Origin: Microbacterium halimionae
GTDB lineage: Bacteria; Actinomycetota; Actinomycetes; Actinomycetales; Microbacteriaceae
Assembly: GCF_011761265.1 (NCBI RefSeq)
Contig: NZ_JAAOZB010000001.1
Location: 1,488,001-1,552,000 of the forward strand
Direction: 5' to 3'
DNA: 64,000 nt
The notes under the pieces were generated by a model, which did no database searches, had not been told where the DNA came from, and saw nothing but the letters and a program-made list of their open reading frames with translations. The position numbers were made by a program, and so were the translations under genes. Positions 19,995 to 30,860 of the stretch are shown here, piece by piece (positions within the stretch are counted from its first letter, which is position 1; each line of letters opens with the position of its first letter).

Positions 19995-20732
19995 CTACTG
20001 CTCGATCTGACCGGTCACAGGTGCGCCGGATTTCAGTGCTGCGAGTCGTGCATCGACTTCGGTGAGTTCACCGAGGTCTTCGAGGCTTTCAAACTGAGCA
20101 TCAAGGCTAGATGCAGCAAGTTCTGCTTTGCCCTGGGCAAGGGCCTCTTGCCGCCGAATCTTGTCTTCGAAGCGGCCGAGCTCGCTCGTTGGGTCCATGA
20201 CGTCAACCGACTTGATGGCATCGTGAACCTTGTTCTGTGCCTCGGCAACCTTGGCGCGAGCGAGCAGTTCGCTGCGCTTCGTCTTGAGCTGCTCAAGCTT
20301 CTGCTTCATGCCGCTGAGGCCATCTTTGAGTTTGTCGACGACTTCGGTTTGGGCCGCAATCTGAGGCGCCGCAGCCTTCGCCTGCCCCTCTTCGGAGATC
20401 TGTCGCTGCAGAGCGATCTTCGCGAGATTATCGAACTTGTCGGCATCCGCCGTGCTGCCCGAGGTGCGCAACTGGTCAGCTTTTCGGCTCGCGGCAAGCG
20501 CCTTGTTGCCCCACTCAGCAGCGGACTGCGTGTCTTCTTGGTGGTCGCGCTCAAGCAGGCGCAGGTTGCCGATAGTCTCAGCGATCGCCGACTCGGCATC
20601 GGCGATGTTGTTTGTGTAGTCACGCACCAACTGATCGAGCATCTTCTGCGGGTCTTCTGCGGAGTCGATCATCGCATTGATGTTCGCGCGCATCAGAGTC
20701 GAGATTCGGCCGAAGATGGACTGCTTTGCCAT
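19995..20732 (-). CDS. pspA: PspA/IM30-family membrane-stress protein
   Basis: 245 residues, almost entirely helical and coiled-coil. The amphipathic N-terminus KQSIFGRISTLMRANINAMIDSAEDP and LDQLVRDYTNNIADAE are the PspA signatures. PspA proteins assemble as ESCRT-III-like polymers on the inner membrane and maintain it under stress. AGGAAGG precedes the ATG. The gene lies 69 bp downstream of the TPM-domain gene on the same strand, a recurrent actinobacterial pairing; the gap holds a weak GCCGG/CCGGC hairpin. Confidence 0.93.
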   Translation of the reverse strand: MAKQSIFGRISTLMRANINAMIDSAEDPQKMLDQLVRDYTNNIADAESAIAETIGNLRLLERDHQEDTQSAAEWGNKALAASRKADQLRTSGSTADADKFDNLAKIALQRQISEEGQAKAAAPQIAAQTEVVDKLKDGLSGMKQKLEQLKTKRSELLARAKVAEAQNKVHDAIKSVDVMDPTSELGRFEDKIRRQEALAQGKAELAASSLDAQFESLEDLGELTEVDARLAALKSGAPVTGQIEQ

Positions 20733-20801: not shown

Positions 20802-22781
20802 TCAGAAGCGACCGCCTCCGCGGCGACCTCGACCGCCACCGCCGCCGAAGGAACCGCCGCCGCCCCGGGATCGTGAGCCGCCGCCGCCACCGAAGCCGCC
20901 GCCACCGCCGAAACCCCCGCCGAAGCCGCCGCGTCGACCGCCACCGAGCATCGAATTAACGACGATCCCACCGAGCATTGCGCCGAGGAACGCGTTCGAG
21001 CTCCCACTCTGTGCGCCGAATCCACCGACGTCAGTTTGTGCGAGTTCGATTGCCTGCGTTGCAAGCTCATATGAGCGCTGTGCCAGGGGTAGTGCCTGCT
21101 CCGGATCGTCTCCGCGTAGTCCCTGAGCCTGAGAGAGGGTGGTGGCCGCTTCGGAAAGACGCGTGCGGGCAGTAGCTCCGACAGCGCCGCGGCGAGAGGC
21201 GATGTAATCTTGCGCGGCAGAAATCTGAGCGCTGGCCTGCATAACGACCTGGTCGACGTGTCGTGCAGCACGTTCCGCGCGCTCAGCCTTACCGCGGATG
21301 TCGTTCAACACGGTATCGAGCTGTTCGTTTGCGCTTTCAAGGAGCTGAAGCGTGAGAAGTGGTCGTGGCGGCGAGGTTGTTCGTGCAGCTTCGAGACCGT
21401 GGCGTGCACCAGCGACGGCGCCGGCTATCCGATCGTCAGCGTCAGTCAAAGCCTCTGCTGCCGCGATGTCCTGTTCGAGCTCCGCGACGAGAGTGGGCAC
21501 GCGGCTCTGGGCGGCGGCAAGGTCACTTCCCAGCGTGCCGATGGCTGCTTCGAGCTGTTGCGCTTGACCGACGGCGCTTTCGGCAGCGCGAATGCGAAGC
21601 GCAGCACTCGCGCTGTCACCCTTGTTCAAAGCCGTGTGTGCGGTCGCGAGTTCATCATCGGCGAATGCAAGCCGCTCTCGAGCCTCGGGAACGTTGTCTG
21701 CGACTGTCGCGAGAGCAGCCGGCGCATACAACACTGCCAGCTCGGTGAGCTTCGTCTGAGCTCCCTCGAGCGTGGCCGCGGCTGCCACACTCGCGTCGCG
21801 GGCAGCTGTGAGTGCCCCTGCAGCGTTTTGCTCAAGTTTTCGTAGCTCGTCGAAGGCTGCGATCTTCGCGTCGAGTTCGCTCTGCGCTTGAGCACAGAGC
21901 TCGATGATCTCGGTATTCCAAGCGCGCACATTCTCGGCGCTGTCGGCAATCTCATCGTCGAGTTGCTGCTGGAGAGTAAACGCGCGATCAAGGCGTTCTT
22001 TTGACGCGGCGAGTGTTGTGACGAACTGAGCTGTCGCCTCGTCGCCGAACTGTGCTCGCGCAAAACCAAGCTCTTGTTCACTTGTGCGCAGGGCGTCGTC
22101 GGTTTTAACGAGAGCGGATGCCGCGCGCCGCGCGAGCGTCTCCGGGTCGAGTTGTTCGGGCTTCACTTCGACAGCCGCTCGCTTTCGACGTGAACGCAGC
22201 ACAATAGCGATGAGGAGCGCCGCGATCGCGAGTATGACGACGATAAGAATGACGACGGGGATGGGCGAACTGCCGGAGTTTCCGGCATCCGATTCAGAAA
22301 CGGTGCCGCCGGTGGCCGCCGTTTCGAACGCATCGGCTGCGTCATCGATCGCGCCAGCGATATCGTCTGCGCGAAGTGCCGGGGTGACGGCTGATTCGAT
22401 CGCGGCGATCTGTTCGACGTCAATCGGACCAGCGGAGTCAGCGGAGATATAGAACTGACGCGAATCGGACGCGATGGCGAACAGATACTGCGAGACGCCC
22501 AGGCCGCTGTCGCTCGCGACAGCGTTTGCCCAGTCTTCGCTTGAGGACGGGTTCGTAAACTCGTCGACGATCGCGACGTAGACGTCGATACCGGTGTCAG
22601 CTGAAAGCTGCGCTAGTCGATCCTCGGTGGCTGTGATCTGGCCGGCTTCGATCGCGCCGGCGTCATCGGTGATGTAGCCGGAATCCAAAGTGACGGGGTC
22701 TGTCGCCGACGCCGCGGATCCACCACTGAGCATGACAAGTGTGAGTGATGCGGCGAGCACCGCAGTCATTCGCGTTCGCAT
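20802..22781 (-). CDS. secreted/membrane TPM-domain protein with coiled coil and Gly-rich tail
   Basis: 659 residues. A signal peptide (MRTRMTAVLAASLTLVMLSGG) is followed by a TPM domain (about residues 35-150, GIDVYVAIVDEFTNP… LFAIASDSRQFYIS), one membrane helix near 175-200, about 370 residues of Ala/Glu/Arg-rich coiled coil, and a 60-residue Gly/Arg/Phe tail. TPM domains outside chloroplasts are poorly understood; the pairing with pspA suggests a role in envelope stress. The ATG at 22781 is chosen for the AGGAGG directly upstream. The N-terminal domain would face outside and the coiled coil the cytosol. Confidence 0.85.
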   Translation of the reverse strand: MRTRMTAVLAASLTLVMLSGGSAASATDPVTLDSGYITDDAGAIEAGQITATEDRLAQLSADTGIDVYVAIVDEFTNPSSSEDWANAVASDSGLGVSQYLFAIASDSRQFYISADSAGPIDVEQIAAIESAVTPALRADDIAGAIDDAADAFETAATGGTVSESDAGNSGSSPIPVVILIVVILAIAALLIAIVLRSRRKRAAVEVKPEQLDPETLARRAASALVKTDDALRTSEQELGFARAQFGDEATAQFVTTLAASKERLDRAFTLQQQLDDEIADSAENVRAWNTEIIELCAQAQSELDAKIAAFDELRKLEQNAAGALTAARDASVAAAATLEGAQTKLTELAVLYAPAALATVADNVPEARERLAFADDELATAHTALNKGDSASAALRIRAAESAVGQAQQLEAAIGTLGSDLAAAQSRVPTLVAELEQDIAAAEALTDADDRIAGAVAGARHGLEAARTTSPPRPLLTLQLLESANEQLDTVLNDIRGKAERAERAARHVDQVVMQASAQISAAQDYIASRRGAVGATARTRLSEAATTLSQAQGLRGDDPEQALPLAQRSYELATQAIELAQTDVGGFGAQSGSSNAFLGAMLGGIVVNSMLGGGRRGGFGGGFGGGGGFGGGGGSRSRGGGGSFGGGGGRGRRGGGRF

Positions 22782-22906
22782 GGGGCCTCCTGTGACGCGC
22801 ATTGTGATCTGAGTCTACGCAGCGCTGCCTATGAGTGACCATGTGGGCGGGTCGGCGAAGCACAGTCGCACTAGCGGGTTACGCTGACGGCCCGGAGGAG
22901 AACGAG

Positions 22907-25388: not shown

Positions 25389-26072
25389 GTGCCGATTGTG
25401 ACTGTCATTGTTCCCTGGCGGGAGTCTCCCTCGCGTGTTCCTGCGTTCGAGGCGTTGCAACGCTGGTACGCCGAAAATCTGCCGGAATATCAGCTGCGCA
25501 CGATTGATGCCACAGACGGAATATTCAATTTGGCTGCCTGCCGCAACGCCGGTCTCAGTGCGATTGGTCTTGACGACGTTGTTGTCATCAATGACGCTGA
25601 CACAGTGCCGGAAGCTCACGCGCTTCGCGAAGCTGTCGCGGCTGCCGCGACAAGCGGACTCGTCCACCTTCCGTATACCGAGTACCGGTGGCTGGGTGAC
25701 AGCGGTACCTCGCAGGCCATCGCTGGTCGCGACCTTTCGGAATGCGACGTAGAACAGGTCGTGGCGACCGCGTGTTCCGGTGTGTACGTGACAACGCCCC
25801 GCACGTGGCATGCGCACGGTGGGCAAGACGAACGCTTCCGCGGCTGGGGCTTCGAAGATGCCGCCTGGTATATCGCCCACGAGACTCTCCTCGGCTCAGC
25901 CCCCGTGCGTCACACGGGTCGTGTCTACGCGCTGAGTCACGTTGCCGAGATTCGCGCCGGTGCTCACTACGACGCGAACGCGTTGCTCATGGAGCGCTAC
26001 CGGGCGGCTTCCGGGGATCCGACGGCGATGGATCAGCTTGTTTCGGAGTGGGCTGAACGCAAAGTCGCGTAA
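25389..26072 (+). CDS. GT2/GT27-like glycosyltransferase
   Basis: 227 residues of a GT-A fold. VTVIVPWRESPSR opens the nucleotide-sugar domain, NDADTVP gives the metal-binding DxD (Asp69, Asp71), and GGQDERFRGWGFEDAA matches the galactosyltransferase C-terminal domain (Glyco_transf_7C) motif. It likely adds a hexose or N-acetylhexosamine to a cell-surface glycan. TAGGCT (25377-25382) ends 6 nt before the GTG start. The 3' end overlaps the convergent glycosyltransferase gene by 40 bp. Confidence 0.82.
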   Translation: MPIVTVIVPWRESPSRVPAFEALQRWYAENLPEYQLRTIDATDGIFNLAACRNAGLSAIGLDDVVVINDADTVPEAHALREAVAAAATSGLVHLPYTEYRWLGDSGTSQAIAGRDLSECDVEQVVATACSGVYVTTPRTWHAHGGQDERFRGWGFEDAAWYIAHETLLGSAPVRHTGRVYALSHVAEIRAGAHYDANALLMERYRAASGDPTAMDQLVSEWAERKVA

Positions 26073-27343
26073 GCGATCTGCGGTCCGGGAGTTTCGCGCT
26101 GCTCTGCGGCAATTGTCGACAGGAGCGATCGCGCCGTGTCAGGAAGATCCCGCACTCGCGCGAAGGATGCTGCAAGCTCATCCACAGTTGCCGCGTTCGG
26201 GTCGAGACTTTCGCCCAGGCCGGTGCGCGAAATTGCTGCCGCGCCTGCGAACTGATCAGTAGAAAACGGCAACACGACGAGCGGAACGCCCTGGCCGATC
26301 GCTTCGGTGACTGAATTATTTCCACCGTGGGTGACGGCGAAAGATGCCTCGCCTAAAAGACGCACCTGCGGCAGATACTCCCGAACGAGCCAGGCGTCCG
26401 GCAGGGCGCCGAGGGCCGACGTGGGTGTTGAGCCCGTGGCGATAGCGGTCCGCATCCCAATCTTCGAAAGCGCCGCTGAGACGCGTGCGAGAACGTCGTC
26501 GCGTACCGAAAGAAAGCTGCCAAAACTGACGTACGCGTAGGGCTCGCCGGTTGCGATCCACGCGTCGACTTCTTCATCAGCTGGTTCGGTTCGTCGGGTG
26601 GAACCGAGAAACTCATGCGGGGGTAGCTGGCGTCCGTCGCCGTCTGCGAGCGCGGCGGGATAGTTGTACAGCACGCGCGCGCCGTGCTCGGCGAAGGCGT
26701 CCTGGGTGGGCAACGCTTCGGGATTTATCGCGAGCGCGGCGCTGTTCCACTGCGCTGTGAAGCTTGCTGACACTTGTTCGCAGAGCGCACGGAGCTCAGC
26801 GAGTTCTTCGGCCTCGGGCGAGAATTCGCTCGGCCAGAATGGCGCGTAACCGTAAACTTCACCCGCCACCGGAAGTGCCGTCGGATGACCGAGCACAACG
26901 TCTCCGTAAGCGATCCCCGCAGCCTGCAATGCCACTCGTGCACTGAAAGCGAGGTGGTCGACGATGATTTCATCTGGCTCGAGGAGGGCCACGAGATCGA
27001 GCACTCGGCGTCCTGTTTCGACGGGCTGCCACATCAGGTCGGTGAGGCGTTCGTGGGCTTGATAGCGGAGAGTTGGGATCATGCCGCGCCGGGTGGCATC
27101 GAAAAATCCCTGCAGCGAGGCAGACTCTTCGGCCTCTTGCTCTTCAGTCCGGACGATCCGCGCGTTGTTGCCGCGACCGAGCGCAAGCTCGTGGTGTTCG
27201 AGGCCGAAGTCACGCACAATTGGTGCTGTCGCGGGTCCCGTTGCCACGACCACGCGTTCACCGGCATCTCGCCAGGCGGTGGCAAGAGTTGCGAGGGGAA
27301 GCAAGTGGGACGCGTAATCGGGGCTGATAACGAGCAGCGTCAT
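26033..27343 (-). CDS. GT1 (UDP-glycosyltransferase/MGT-type) glycosyltransferase
   Basis: 436 residues of the GT-B fold. The N-terminus MTLLVISPDYASHLLPLATLA and the C-terminal donor-binding region THGGNNSVTEAIGQGVPLVVLPFSTDQF place it with macrolide/UDP glycosyltransferases. PYAYVSFGSF is the standard start of the second domain. Acceptors of this family range from natural products to lipids. Its start overlaps the stop of the HEAT-GT gene by 4 nt, so the two are coupled. Confidence 0.88.
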   Translation of the reverse strand: MTLLVISPDYASHLLPLATLATAWRDAGERVVVATGPATAPIVRDFGLEHHELALGRGNNARIVRTEEQEAEESASLQGFFDATRRGMIPTLRYQAHERLTDLMWQPVETGRRVLDLVALLEPDEIIVDHLAFSARVALQAAGIAYGDVVLGHPTALPVAGEVYGYAPFWPSEFSPEAEELAELRALCEQVSASFTAQWNSAALAINPEALPTQDAFAEHGARVLYNYPAALADGDGRQLPPHEFLGSTRRTEPADEEVDAWIATGEPYAYVSFGSFLSVRDDVLARVSAALSKIGMRTAIATGSTPTSALGALPDAWLVREYLPQVRLLGEASFAVTHGGNNSVTEAIGQGVPLVVLPFSTDQFAGAAAISRTGLGESLDPNAATVDELAASFARVRDLPDTARSLLSTIAAEQRETPGPQIAYATLRSAHSETS

Positions 27344-29496
27344 AGTACGCCCCGAGCTTCGCGTACGAGCTCTGCTTCGTCGGCAACGACGTGTCGGTAC
27401 ACCGGGCCAAGGGCGCTTGCCATGGCTTGGATGGTGAAGTTGTCGCTGACCATATCGTGCGCGGCATCCGCTCGTTCTGTTCCCGGTAATACGGCGAGCT
27501 CGAGGGCTGCGCCGACGGCCCGCTCGAGCATCTCGCGGTTCCAGGTTTCGGTCAGGATGCCGGTGCGTCCCTGCTCGACGTAGGTTGCCGGACCGCCGCC
27601 ATCGGGAGCAACGACAGTGAGGCCCGTGGCCATGGCTTCAAGCAGAGCAATACCGAACTCTTCTTTCACACTCGCGCACACGTAAGCGCCGTGCGGGGCA
27701 GCGAGGTCGGGAAGACCGAATCGTGCCGCGGCCAGCCAGCGTGCTGCGACATTGTTCGGCTGGTGGCCGGCGAGGAGTAGCCCATGGCTGATGCGCTCTG
27801 TGGCGGGTACGACAGCGTTGATGCGCTCGAGCTGTTCGCGTTCATCGAGAGATGGAGTGTCGAGATCACCACCGATGATGACGAGGTTCGCCCGTTCGCG
27901 AAGATCGCTCTGCGCCCAGGTCTCAACGAGCGTTGCCATACCCTTGACGCGGTGCAAACGACCGAGACTCACGATCAGGGGGAGTACGCGGCGCTCGGGC
28001 GGTAGCCCTTGCAGTAGGTCGCGCAACGCGTTGAGGCTCGGCGTCGCCGCGGCGCCCTCGGCGTGGGAGCGCGCCTCGGCGACGGAATCCTCGGTGACGA
28101 CGAGGTCGACGCCCTCTGCGACGATCGTGTGGCGTTCGGGGTGAGAAGTTATGTCGATGCCAACGAGCTGCTTCATGTCGCGCTCCAACTCAGGACGCGG
28201 AAAGAGCACCGTGTGTGCTGCGTTCGACGAGAGTCGCTGCACGAGCCGCGTGCGGAACCAGAAATGCTCGCGGAGGTCGGTCTCGCCGAAGTCGGTGCGC
28301 GTGAGATCTCCCGAGAGGTCGAGTGAACGGATCACCGCGTGGGGGTCGGGTGCGACCGTGAACACGACCGGAATACCCAGTTCGCGCGCGACGTCTGCCG
28401 CAGCAAGGCTTCCGACATCCGCCATTCGCAGGTGCAGCAGATCGACGTGGCCGGCAGCACGGAGCACGCGACGGATGCCACGGCGAATCGTCACACGTAA
28501 CGGCCATGCCGCAGCCGACGGCATCGGCTCGTCGGCAAGCGGCACGCGCGCGTACATGTGACCCGAGTCGCTCGCGCCAATGTCGAGGAGGTCGCTCGTC
28601 GCCTGAGCGAGGGGACCACGCGAAAGTGTCAGAACACGTTGCACACCAACGGCGGAGTCGGTCACGAGGGCGTCACCGAGGCGCACGAGCAAGGTGGCGA
28701 TACCACCGTTGTCGCCTGCGCCGGCGAATGCCAGCGTGGGATCGATGTCGGCGTGCAGGAACATCTGCGCGACTGTCATCCCCTCGGTGTCGTCGCCACT
28801 GTGCTGCGGGGTCGGCTCGAGGTCGAGTAGCGCGATGCGAGCCGCGGCTCCGATGCGGTCGCCCTCGAGCAGAATTTCTTCCAGCACCGGAGTGATGGCG
28901 CCGCTTTGCGCTGCGCGTTGCCCCAGGGCTTCGATCGCTGCACGTCGAGCGGGGAGGGATTCAGCGTGATCTTGCGCGATCAGAAGCAGCGGCCGCGTGG
29001 CGACGTCACCGCGCACGAGACCCAGAGTTTCCACGAGTCGAGCGCGTGCGTCAGGCGCTGCGATACCCAAAAGGGCAGCTTCAAGTCCGACAGATAGGGC
29101 ATCTCGCGCGTCGTTCGACCACACCTCAAGGGTGCGCTGTGCCAGCATTCCGCCGAAGCCGCCGTCGGCTACTGCCGCGATCAAGCGACCCATGGCCTCA
29201 ATGCGTGGCAACGAAGATGACAGCGCCCAGGTGGCGTGCTCTCGGATGGTTGCGCGTGGGTCAGAGAGCAGTGCGCACAGCATGCGGCCCGCCTGCTCGT
29301 CGTAGATCTCCGCGAGGGCGTGCACCGCGGCGATTGCGGCAACCTCATCTGTGCCGCGAATCGCAGTGTTCAGCACACGCAGCGTGCGAACGCCCGGGTC
29401 GCGACCGGCTTCGAAAGCCAAGTCGTCAGCGAGATGCATGGCATCGACAATGCTCGGCGCCTGAAGCACCGCGTCGAGAGCTGTTTGCACGCCCAT
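27340..29496 (-). CDS. HEAT-repeat/GT4 glycosyltransferase fusion
   Basis: About 718 residues in two parts. Residues 1-215 are helical repeats of HEAT type (e.g. EVAAIAAVHALAEIYDEQAGRMLCALLSDPRATIREHATWAL). The C-terminal 450 residues are a GT-B glycosyltransferase of family 4: VDLLHLRMADVGSLAAADVARELGIPVVFTVA, PLIVSLGRLHRVKGMATLVETW, and the KEEFGIALLEAMATG donor motif. HEAT repeats usually mediate protein contacts, so the fusion may tether the enzyme to partners. The second ATG (29496) is preferred because AGGGG lies 6 nt before it; 29502 is the alternative. Head gene of a two-gene operon. Confidence 0.85.
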   Translation of the reverse strand: MGVQTALDAVLQAPSIVDAMHLADDLAFEAGRDPGVRTLRVLNTAIRGTDEVAAIAAVHALAEIYDEQAGRMLCALLSDPRATIREHATWALSSSLPRIEAMGRLIAAVADGGFGGMLAQRTLEVWSNDARDALSVGLEAALLGIAAPDARARLVETLGLVRGDVATRPLLLIAQDHAESLPARRAAIEALGQRAAQSGAITPVLEEILLEGDRIGAAARIALLDLEPTPQHSGDDTEGMTVAQMFLHADIDPTLAFAGAGDNGGIATLLVRLGDALVTDSAVGVQRVLTLSRGPLAQATSDLLDIGASDSGHMYARVPLADEPMPSAAAWPLRVTIRRGIRRVLRAAGHVDLLHLRMADVGSLAAADVARELGIPVVFTVAPDPHAVIRSLDLSGDLTRTDFGETDLREHFWFRTRLVQRLSSNAAHTVLFPRPELERDMKQLVGIDITSHPERHTIVAEGVDLVVTEDSVAEARSHAEGAAATPSLNALRDLLQGLPPERRVLPLIVSLGRLHRVKGMATLVETWAQSDLRERANLVIIGGDLDTPSLDEREQLERINAVVPATERISHGLLLAGHQPNNVAARWLAAARFGLPDLAAPHGAYVCASVKEEFGIALLEAMATGLTVVAPDGGGPATYVEQGRTGILTETWNREMLERAVGAALELAVLPGTERADAAHDMVSDNFTIQAMASALGPVYRHVVADEAELVREARGVL

Positions 29497-29669
29497 CGGC
29501 ATCCCCTTTTTTCTGCTGACCCACAGTTCGCAAGCCGCTTTGAATCGTAACGCGCAGAGGTAGCTGATTGGTGCGAAGTTGGGCGTGGTGTATCGGACTA
29601 GTTGCCCAGCTGGTGCGCGGAAGAAGCGGCTAGCGTGTACGGGGCTGTTTGGTCGGCGAAAGAGGAGTC

Positions 29670-30860
29670 ATGCGTCTGGTTGTAATTGGTGATGTCGGAG
29701 TAGTCGACGGCATGATGCACATTGGCGATGAGGCCATGTTCGAAGCGCTGTGTGACGAAATGCGTGCCCGCGGTGGAGATATCGTTGCGGTGTCTTCGGC
29801 TCCGCGCGAAACAGCCGCGCGCTATGGCGTTGACGCGATCGGTCGAATCGATTTCGATCGCTTGAGCCGTGCCGACGCCGAGGCTCGACTTGATGGGGTC
29901 GCTGCGGCTCTTGGCGGAACGGCATCCGCAGATGAACGCATTGGCACGATGATCGCTGAGATCACGTCGGCGGATGCCGTCATCATCGCGGGCGCCGGAA
30001 ACCTTGCGTCGACCTGGCCCACTCACATTTACGAGCGGGTGGCGATGTCGCGAATCGCTCGAGCTCTGGGTCGCCCGCTCTTTGTCACTGGCCAGACATT
30101 GGGCCCGAAGTTGAATGAACGCGATCGTGAGCTCGTCGGCGAGATCATCCGGCATGCAGCTCTCGTTGGCGTGCGCGAAACAACGTCGCAGGCACTGTCT
30201 GCTGATCTGGGGGTGCCCGCGCGGCTCGGCGTCGATGACGCGTCTTTCCTTGCATGGGATGAGATCGGGTTGCCATCAAATCGGTCGGGCGTTCTCATCA
30301 GCCTCTCGCTGCACCTCGGGGGAGTCGACCGCGTTGAAGCGACGACGCGGATTGCAGCGCTCGCTGATGCCGCCGCCAGAGTCACCGGAGAGCCCGTGCG
30401 CTTTCACGCGCATTTTGGCGCTGTGGATGATGAGGCACCGCGCGGCGACGCGCTTTTGCACGATGAGATCCGAGCCCGCATGCAGTCGGCGTCTGAGGTG
30501 CTGCCGACCGGCACACCGCGTCAGGCGGCGCTCGCCGCCCGAAGTGCAGCGCTGCTCATCACTGGCCGCTACCACCCCGCCGTTTTCGCGGCACCCGCAG
30601 GGGTTCCGGTTCTCGGACTCGTGACCGACGAATACACCCGAATAAAGCAGCGGGGAGCGTTAGCGCACTGGGGGCAATCGAGCACTGTGGCGCTCGCCGC
30701 GGTAGATACCGACGGCATCCCGGTGCTTGAGGCGCTGTGGCAACAGCGGGAACGAGTCGCTCAAAGCGCTGCTGAGGCGGTGACGGCTGCACGAGTCGAA
30801 TCCGACTCGTGGTGGACGCACATTGCAGAGAGTGTCGCGAAAATGCGGAAAGCGTCGTGA
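29670..30860 (+). CDS. polysaccharide pyruvyl transferase family protein
   Basis: 396 residues. IGDVGVVDGMMHIGDEAMFEAL, ADAVIIAGAGNLASTWPTHIYERVAM, PLFVTGQTLGP and LLITGRYHPAVFAAPAGVPVLGL follow the PS_pyruv_trans/CsaB pattern. Members attach pyruvate ketals from phosphoenolpyruvate to sugars of cell-wall or capsular polysaccharides. AAAGAGGAG precedes the ATG at 29670. It is divergent from the HEAT-GT operon and likely modifies the glycan those enzymes build; this is an inference from position. Confidence 0.85.
   Translation: MRLVVIGDVGVVDGMMHIGDEAMFEALCDEMRARGGDIVAVSSAPRETAARYGVDAIGRIDFDRLSRADAEARLDGVAAALGGTASADERIGTMIAEITSADAVIIAGAGNLASTWPTHIYERVAMSRIARALGRPLFVTGQTLGPKLNERDRELVGEIIRHAALVGVRETTSQALSADLGVPARLGVDDASFLAWDEIGLPSNRSGVLISLSLHLGGVDRVEATTRIAALADAAARVTGEPVRFHAHFGAVDDEAPRGDALLHDEIRARMQSASEVLPTGTPRQAALAARSAALLITGRYHPAVFAAPAGVPVLGLVTDEYTRIKQRGALAHWGQSSTVALAAVDTDGIPVLEALWQQRERVAQSAAEAVTAARVESDSWWTHIAESVAKMRKAS

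Follow-up and report, generated by a model that had tools for sequence, protein, structure and literature searches.

A HEAT-repeat/GT4 glycosyltransferase paired with a GT1 enzyme, and a nested pyruvyl transferase add-on, in Microbacterium halimionae and other actinobacteria

A 64,000-nucleotide stretch of the Microbacterium halimionae genome (contig NZ_JAAOZB010000001.1, positions 1,488,001 to 1,552,000; hereafter the window) contains four neighboring genes, encoding a fusion of HEAT repeats with a family 4 glycosyltransferase (HEAT-GT4), a family 1 glycosyltransferase (GT1), a GT7/GT27-like glycosyltransferase of the GT-A fold (GT27-like), and a polysaccharide pyruvyl transferase (PvT). These four genes are two units: a core of HEAT-GT4 and GT1, and an add-on of GT27-like and PvT nested within it. 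Computation establishes the domain identities, the overlap of the core genes, their conservation, the nesting, and a fusion of GT27-like with PvT; the function of the locus is a prediction. The prediction we favor, at about even confidence, is a short sequential glycosylation pathway leading to an anionic, pyruvate-capped oligosaccharide glycoconjugate, as opposed to a polymer built by the locus alone.

Orthologues of the fusion are present in 101 of 398 genomes of the family Microbacteriaceae (24 of 85 genera) and in 3 of 39 genomes of the genus, a count that includes the source genome and one copy read as two open reading frames (ORFs). They also occur in 23 of 396 genomes sampled from the order and in 3 of 396 sampled from the phylum, one of them outside the class. 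The genome searches scored the best first-look candidates (two per genome for the fusion, seven for GT27-like, and at most 37, 31, and 24 for PvT), and absences refer to strong matches. Fusion-bearing taxa include Microbacterium, Agromyces, Herbiconiux, Frigoribacterium, Cryobacterium, Cellulomonas, Arthrobacter, and others, the closest named relatives being in Microbacterium. The relatives are full-length, show 50–66% identity, and span many genera, and catalytic-type motifs are invariant in the fusion, GT1, GT27-like, and PvT alignments; because of these features and the kept gene order, the four-gene locus is more than a chance arrangement. Two contigs titled Planococcus sp. (L091) and Acidobacteria bacterium MAG (L114) carry the module amid Microbacteriaceae-type matches and are probably mislabeled or misbinned.

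GT1 lies directly 3' of the fusion at all loci of a 42-locus set, at all 80 loci of a named set (the best 80 of 270 confirmed loci), and at 14 of 15 further loci, among which L194 is probably from the same genome as L088. The first two sets share nine pairs (GT1 identity of at least 97%), and their counts are not summed; the 112 non-redundant loci were picked through GT1 and cannot test its presence. The core genes overlap by exactly 4 nucleotides in 108 of 114 pairs, these being the pairs from the 122 loci (42 + 80) with both ORFs resolved on one strand, nine duplicates kept. An earlier note on this DNA, made from the sequence alone, had described GT1 as the overlapping neighbor of the fusion, and this arrangement proves nearly invariant, the 4-nucleotide overlap included. 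The overlap suggests translational coupling of HEAT-GT4 and GT1. Neighbors other than GT1 differ between genera while the pair persists, and HEAT-GT4 with GT1 therefore forms a unit of its own, the two products probably being required jointly. A putative physical enzyme complex is plausible.

GT27-like is found in 37 of the 398 family genomes, all of them among the 101 fusion carriers, and in none of the 297 non-carriers. With the two 398-genome samples taken as identical, the hypergeometric probability of this nesting is 2.7e-25, or 5e-10 by genus (14 of 14 inside the 24 of 85), neither value being corrected for phylogeny. PvT follows the same pattern: among family carriers, matches occur in 36 of the 37 with GT27-like and in 4 of the 64 without it, and none was found in the 76 non-carriers tested, for which the same query in carriers served as the positive control. 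When 50 fusion carriers were examined for both genes, all 21 with GT27-like had PvT, which totaled 24, and the other 60 family carriers held 20 PvT matches, 19 of them alongside GT27-like. Close to the core pair, the 80 named loci show GT27-like at 47, PvT at 46, and both at 44, although some contigs stop short of the positions concerned. The best evidence that GT27-like and PvT act on one product is this shared distribution together with a single 648-codon ORF (stop-to-stop) that joins them at L201 (4793–6737, minus strand; genome G090). They stand in tandem in L202 and L207 (genomes G159 and G213), and in all three genomes the couple lies on a different contig from the core pair. The ten-locus set that includes L201 was searched for the four genes only, apart from one L201 ORF that was read, and loci L195–L200 were left out.

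Nesting of the add-on in core carriers suggests that it acts after the core. The earlier note had treated the four genes as one association, and this stands in part. PvT and GT27-like do track the core pair, but 64 of the 101 carriers lack GT27-like and 61 lack a PvT-profile match; the four genes are therefore not one obligate unit, and fusion orthologues without the add-on genes, which that note had named as evidence against its reading, do exist.

The fusion ORF runs from its first ATG across 27340–29502 (minus strand, 720 codons). Its true start is likely the ATG at 29496, because residue 3 is where most orthologues in the alignment start; this would give the 718 residues of the earlier note. 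Pfam matches, all above their cut-offs, are to HEAT_2 (E = 1.5e-7), Glycos_transf_1 (PF00534, E = 9.6e-18), and Glyco_transf_4 (PF13439, E = 8.6e-7), and a scan of 52 fusion members, the window protein included, recovers HEAT_2 and PF00534 in all 52 and PF13439 in 50. AlphaFold2, given a 52-sequence alignment (the window protein and 51 sequences from the named loci), models a helix run over residues 5–228 followed by a two-lobed glycosyltransferase, with a mean predicted local distance difference test (pLDDT) score of 91.0 and a predicted template-modeling (pTM) score of 0.90. A profile of the 52-sequence fusion alignment matches designed alphaRep HEAT proteins over the N-terminus (E = 1.2e-28). 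The model and the HEAT_2 match in all 52 members bear out the N-terminal HEAT fold that had been proposed. In 113 of 115 orthologues examined, 201–307 residues precede the GT4 glycine loop; the other two lack the glycine-loop motif searched for, and one of them is a broken copy. As a side observation, the fusion reads as two pieces in L047 (genome G036) and L189 (G1075), through assembly error or decay.

E614 and E622 of the E-x7-E motif, R515, and K520 are invariant across 52 fusion sequences and align with sucrose synthase. Within the HEAT domain, R39, R87, R153, and R186 are conserved in at least 95% of sequences and fall at positions that are usually arginine in HEAT/PBS-type repeats. The most conserved HEAT helix is 115–128 (mean conservation 0.87; G114, F116, M119, Q122, and W128 invariant), and repeat architecture offers no obvious explanation for this conservation.

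In its catalytic half, HEAT-GT4 has the GT-B fold, the E-x7-E motif, and the R/K donor motifs in common with sucrose-phosphate synthase, sucrose synthase, and MshA, although identity to them is only about 18–21%. Its glycosyltransferase part superposes on sucrose-phosphate synthase structures 2r60 (Z 25.8; root-mean-square deviation, rmsd, 8.5 Å over 422 residues) and 6kih (Z 24.5; rmsd 2.9 Å over 391 residues). No NCBIfam model reaches its cut-off on the fusion, the best being a sucrose-phosphate synthase model at 68 against 576 bits. To our knowledge, sucrose-phosphate synthase, sucrose synthase, and MshA do not occur as HEAT fusions.

The GT1 protein matches UDPGT (PF00201, E = 1.6e-15; 57.3 bits against a cut-off of 19.5) and EryCIII-like_C (E = 7.8e-13), and no NCBIfam model reaches its cut-off. 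H13 is invariant in 24 sequences, and we take it, by analogy, to be the catalytic base. The donor-binding C-terminal half is common to the macrolide and enediyne enzymes CalG1, YjiC, and oleandomycin glycosyltransferase, whereas the N-terminal acceptor half hardly matches them, yet is highly conserved among orthologues. No natural-product cluster was seen beside the locus GT1.

These relatives raise the possibility that the core pair makes a small soluble glycoside of the sucrose-phosphate, trehalose, or mycothiol type, with HEAT in a regulatory or oligomerization role and the add-on as optional decoration. The closest solved GT4 relatives (sucrose-phosphate synthase, sucrose synthase, MshA, and TreT) fit this idea, as do the small-molecule enzymes closest to GT1, such as CalG1 and YjiC. 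We nevertheless consider it improbable: the GT4 and GT1 families also hold enzymes that act on lipids and glycans, no phosphatase or other solute-pathway gene was recognized among the recurrent neighbors, and a dedicated pyruvyl transferase would be unusual on a free solute.

The 227-residue GT27-like protein is a GT7/GT27-like GT-A enzyme by its modeled fold, with the family profile below cut-off. Pfam gives only sub-threshold matches, to PF02709 (Glyco_transf_7C; 19.4 bits against a cut-off of 23) and to another GT-A model; no NCBIfam model reaches its cut-off, and the GT27-like alignment, used as a profile against the PDB, gave no match below E = 0.26. Its structural model (pLDDT 95.6, pTM 0.92) matches Escherichia coli K4 chondroitin polymerase (Z 15.7, rmsd 3.1 Å, 193 residues), beta-1,4-galactosyltransferases (Z about 15), and GalNAc-T2 (Z about 14). 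The best matches to GT7/GT27 enzymes and chondroitin-polymerase GT-A domains lie at Z about 15 and rmsd about 3 Å over 186–193 residues; identities among the matches listed are 11–20%, and the locus protein differs from these enzymes in standing alone as a minimal GT-A protein. Of its motifs, D69-A-D71 is invariant and GWGFED is nearly invariant. Other predicted genes lie between GT27-like and GT1 in Arenivirga flava and a relative, separating them by about 2.6 kb (L049/L104) and 1.4 kb (L054/L100).

PvT matches Pfam PF04230 (E = 6.2e-28; 98.9 bits against a curated cut-off of 25.3), and its start is more likely the ATG at 29670 than the TTG at 29649. The NCBIfam model for CsaB (TIGR03609) matches it (E = 4.2e-30) at 105.1 bits, below the curated cut-off of 213.1, and a PDB profile search with the PvT alignment returned nothing at E ≤ 0.001. 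Three more PF04230 matches lie in the source genome outside the window (G000:C1 400300, 1395286, and 1425154), one of them weaker and in a 953-codon ORF. In Naasia aerilata (L050/L103), PvT reads as two pieces, through assembly error or decay.

From this gene content, we propose that four enzymes, soluble or peripheral on the cytoplasmic side of the membrane, would act in sequence. HEAT-GT4 and GT1, presumably made as a translationally coupled pair, would lay the first two sugars on an acceptor. With respect to anomeric configuration, GT4 is a retaining family and GT1 an inverting one, so an alpha-type and then a beta-type linkage would be expected if the donors are UDP- or GDP-alpha-sugars. 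The HEAT superhelix would most likely serve as a docking surface that binds either the acceptor or a partner protein; gene coupling makes GT1 the obvious candidate partner, and acceptor capture as in FlmG, the flagellin O-glycosyltransferase of Caulobacter, is the alternative. In a subset of species, the source among them, the GT27-like enzyme would add a further sugar, which PvT would cap with a pyruvate ketal. The end product would be a glycolipid or a glycoprotein.

If HEAT captures an acceptor protein, HEAT-GT4 could itself be a cytoplasmic protein glycosyltransferase that adds the first sugar, with GT1 extending it, a minority possibility in our estimate. FlmG, as described in the relevant passages of PMC7591256, provides the precedent: it likewise joins an N-terminal helical repeat to a C-terminal GT-B catalytic domain in one soluble chain, and its TPR domain alone binds the flagellin acceptor. 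The likeness is one of architecture only, since the FlmG repeat is TPR and not HEAT. The soluble appearance of the locus proteins, the strong conservation of HEAT helix 115–128, and the lack of lipid-linked-sugar genes among recurrent neighbors are consistent with protein glycosylation. Judged by their entry titles and by what is established about them, the GT4 relatives with solved structures mainly use small molecules or sugars as substrates, and no conserved neighbor is fit to be the acceptor. Strong flagellin matches occur in 16 of 50 fusion carriers (two more are weak) and in 11 of 30 non-carriers under the same search, and none was found in the source genome; flagellin is thereby ruled out as a general acceptor, 34 of the 50 carriers, the source included, being without a strong match. 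A broader version would be an undescribed actinobacterial cytoplasmic protein-glycosylation machine made up of HEAT-GT4 and GT1, in which the HEAT superhelix fused to GT4 selects acceptor proteins, by analogy with TPR-glycosyltransferases such as FlmG, and GT27-like and PvT cap the protein-linked glycan with pyruvate; this we hold to be quite doubtful.

The earlier note had instead suggested a pyruvylated surface polymer, and on this reading the product of the four enzymes would be a secondary cell-wall polymer or another polymer of the cell surface. PvT does resemble CsaB, although below the curated cut-off, and shares its PF04230 domain; passages of the review PMC6801904 describe pyruvylated wall polymers in actinobacteria such as Promicromonospora. 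Unlike CsaB, which works with SLH-anchored wall polymer, the locus PvT is linked to glycosyltransferases. Of the 21 genomes that carry both add-on genes, 20 lack SLH-domain proteins, as does the source genome, under a search that was positive in 4 of 14 control genomes; the locus thus does not look like a CsaB-type SLH-anchoring system, and that reading is rejected. The sole SLH-positive genome of the 21, G572, carries another PvT next to SLH genes in addition to the module copy. In G395, G413, G290, and G572, PvT copies are found no more than about 20 kb from SLH-domain genes (directly adjoining in G572); these probably represent canonical CsaB/SLH systems and not the module PvT. The first three are the carriers with PvT but no GT27-like among the 50 examined for both genes. 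Score does not cleanly separate the two kinds, as G395 (E = 7e-114) and G432 (3e-109) outscore a frame-broken module copy in G401 (2e-96).

Gene neighborhoods and membrane predictions also bear on the polymer. No flippase, polymerase, exporter, or priming transferase was found among recurrent neighbors, which were labeled by eye from 21 cluster representatives and not scanned; the rest of the genome was not searched for export genes. Recurrent neighbors beyond the four genes include an ABC ATPase, a short-chain dehydrogenase, a LacI-type regulator, an adenylosuccinate-lyase-like protein, and others, mostly in clusters confined to a few related loci. They show no tie to glycan export or polymerization, and assigning function from conserved neighbors was dropped. 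By hydropathy (maximum over 19 residues 1.17–1.46), all four proteins lack a likely membrane segment and look soluble. Moreover, 26 of 50 and 40 of 60 carriers have the core pair but no PvT match at all. The surface polymer is thus unsupported, the locus is not evidently a polymer pathway, and we regard the wall-polymer reading as doubtful.

Several observations weigh against the favored pathway of a coupled pair, a nested add-on, and a capped oligosaccharide. The product could be handled by export genes at other sites in the genome, and could then be a polymer. GT1 was not seen beside the fusion in L181, from a genome that is 88% complete, and HEAT looks shortened in L180, L182, and L193, from another family of the order, where matches end near residue 128 of the query and resume near 236–241. 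The HEAT domain is less conserved overall than GT4 (mean pairwise identity 52.9% versus 62.8%). A mirror-tree analysis of 105 loci found no HEAT–GT1 co-divergence beyond that of GT4 (r = 0.55 for HEAT and GT1, 0.60 for GT4 and GT1; partial HEAT–GT1 correlation 0.03), and HEAT may therefore bind something other than GT1. The nesting also has exceptions: G368 carries GT27-like but gave no PvT match, and a PvT match occurs without GT27-like in G395, G413, G290, and G432.

The ORF coordinates (Table 1) agree with the placement in the earlier note, with PvT divergent from the fusion and GT27-like convergent with GT1, their 3' ends overlapping tail-to-tail by 40 nucleotides. The gap between HEAT-GT4 and PvT is 56–269 nucleotides in 52 of 58 loci measured. 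Sixteen aligned intergenic regions, of 50 available, show no clear conserved block as a promoter motif; a TAGCGT-like stretch recurs in the aligned rows close to that of the window. Elsewhere in the window, by-eye labels identify a TPM-like protein with a long glycine-rich C-terminus (20802–22802, minus strand) and an adjoining PspA-like gene (19995–20732, minus strand).

Table 1. Features of the four-gene locus, in window coordinates
Feature	Position	Strand	Details
HEAT-GT4 fusion	27340..29496	-	718 aa; 720 aa with upstream ATG at 29502
HEAT-repeat domain	28819..29490	-	residues 5-228 (720-aa numbering), helix run; AlphaFold2 model, HEAT_2, alphaRep profile match
GT4 glycosyltransferase domain	27343..28779	-	residues 242-720; E-x7-E = E614/E622, R515, K520 invariant
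GT1 (UDPGT / macrolide-glycosyltransferase-like) glycosyltransferase	26033..27343	-	436 aa
ATGA stop/start overlap of HEAT-GT4 and GT1	27340..27343	-	window sequence; kept in 108 of 114 orthologous pairs
Divergent intergenic region HEAT-GT4/PvT	29497..29669		presumed promoters of both transcripts
Polysaccharide pyruvyl transferase (PvT, PF04230)	29670..30860	+	396 aa from ATG; TTG 29649 possible
GT7/GT27-like GT-A glycosyltransferase	25389..26072	+	227 aa; D69-A-D71 and GWGFED motifs

A literature search found no description of this module, no work joining HEAT repeats and a glycosyltransferase with Microbacteriaceae or Microbacterium, and none joining Microbacterium with pyruvylated glycolipid. 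The main text of the review PMC6801904 contains no word beginning with Microbacteri-, and the pyruvic-acid passages of PMC10978784 concern indole-3-pyruvic acid and have no bearing on the locus. The module is without a specific NCBIfam model and was not found in the literature search, yet it is built of known enzyme kinds.

The four genes look like a widespread, undescribed pathway of soil actinobacteria for a short, pyruvate-tagged sugar chain. With the core in 101 and the add-on in 37 of 398 family genomes, and the core also in further Actinomycetales, the distribution predicts that these bacteria make a specific anionic glycoconjugate. The gene content provides testable predictions for each step, and HEAT-GT4 would offer a case for how helical-repeat domains direct glycosyltransferases.

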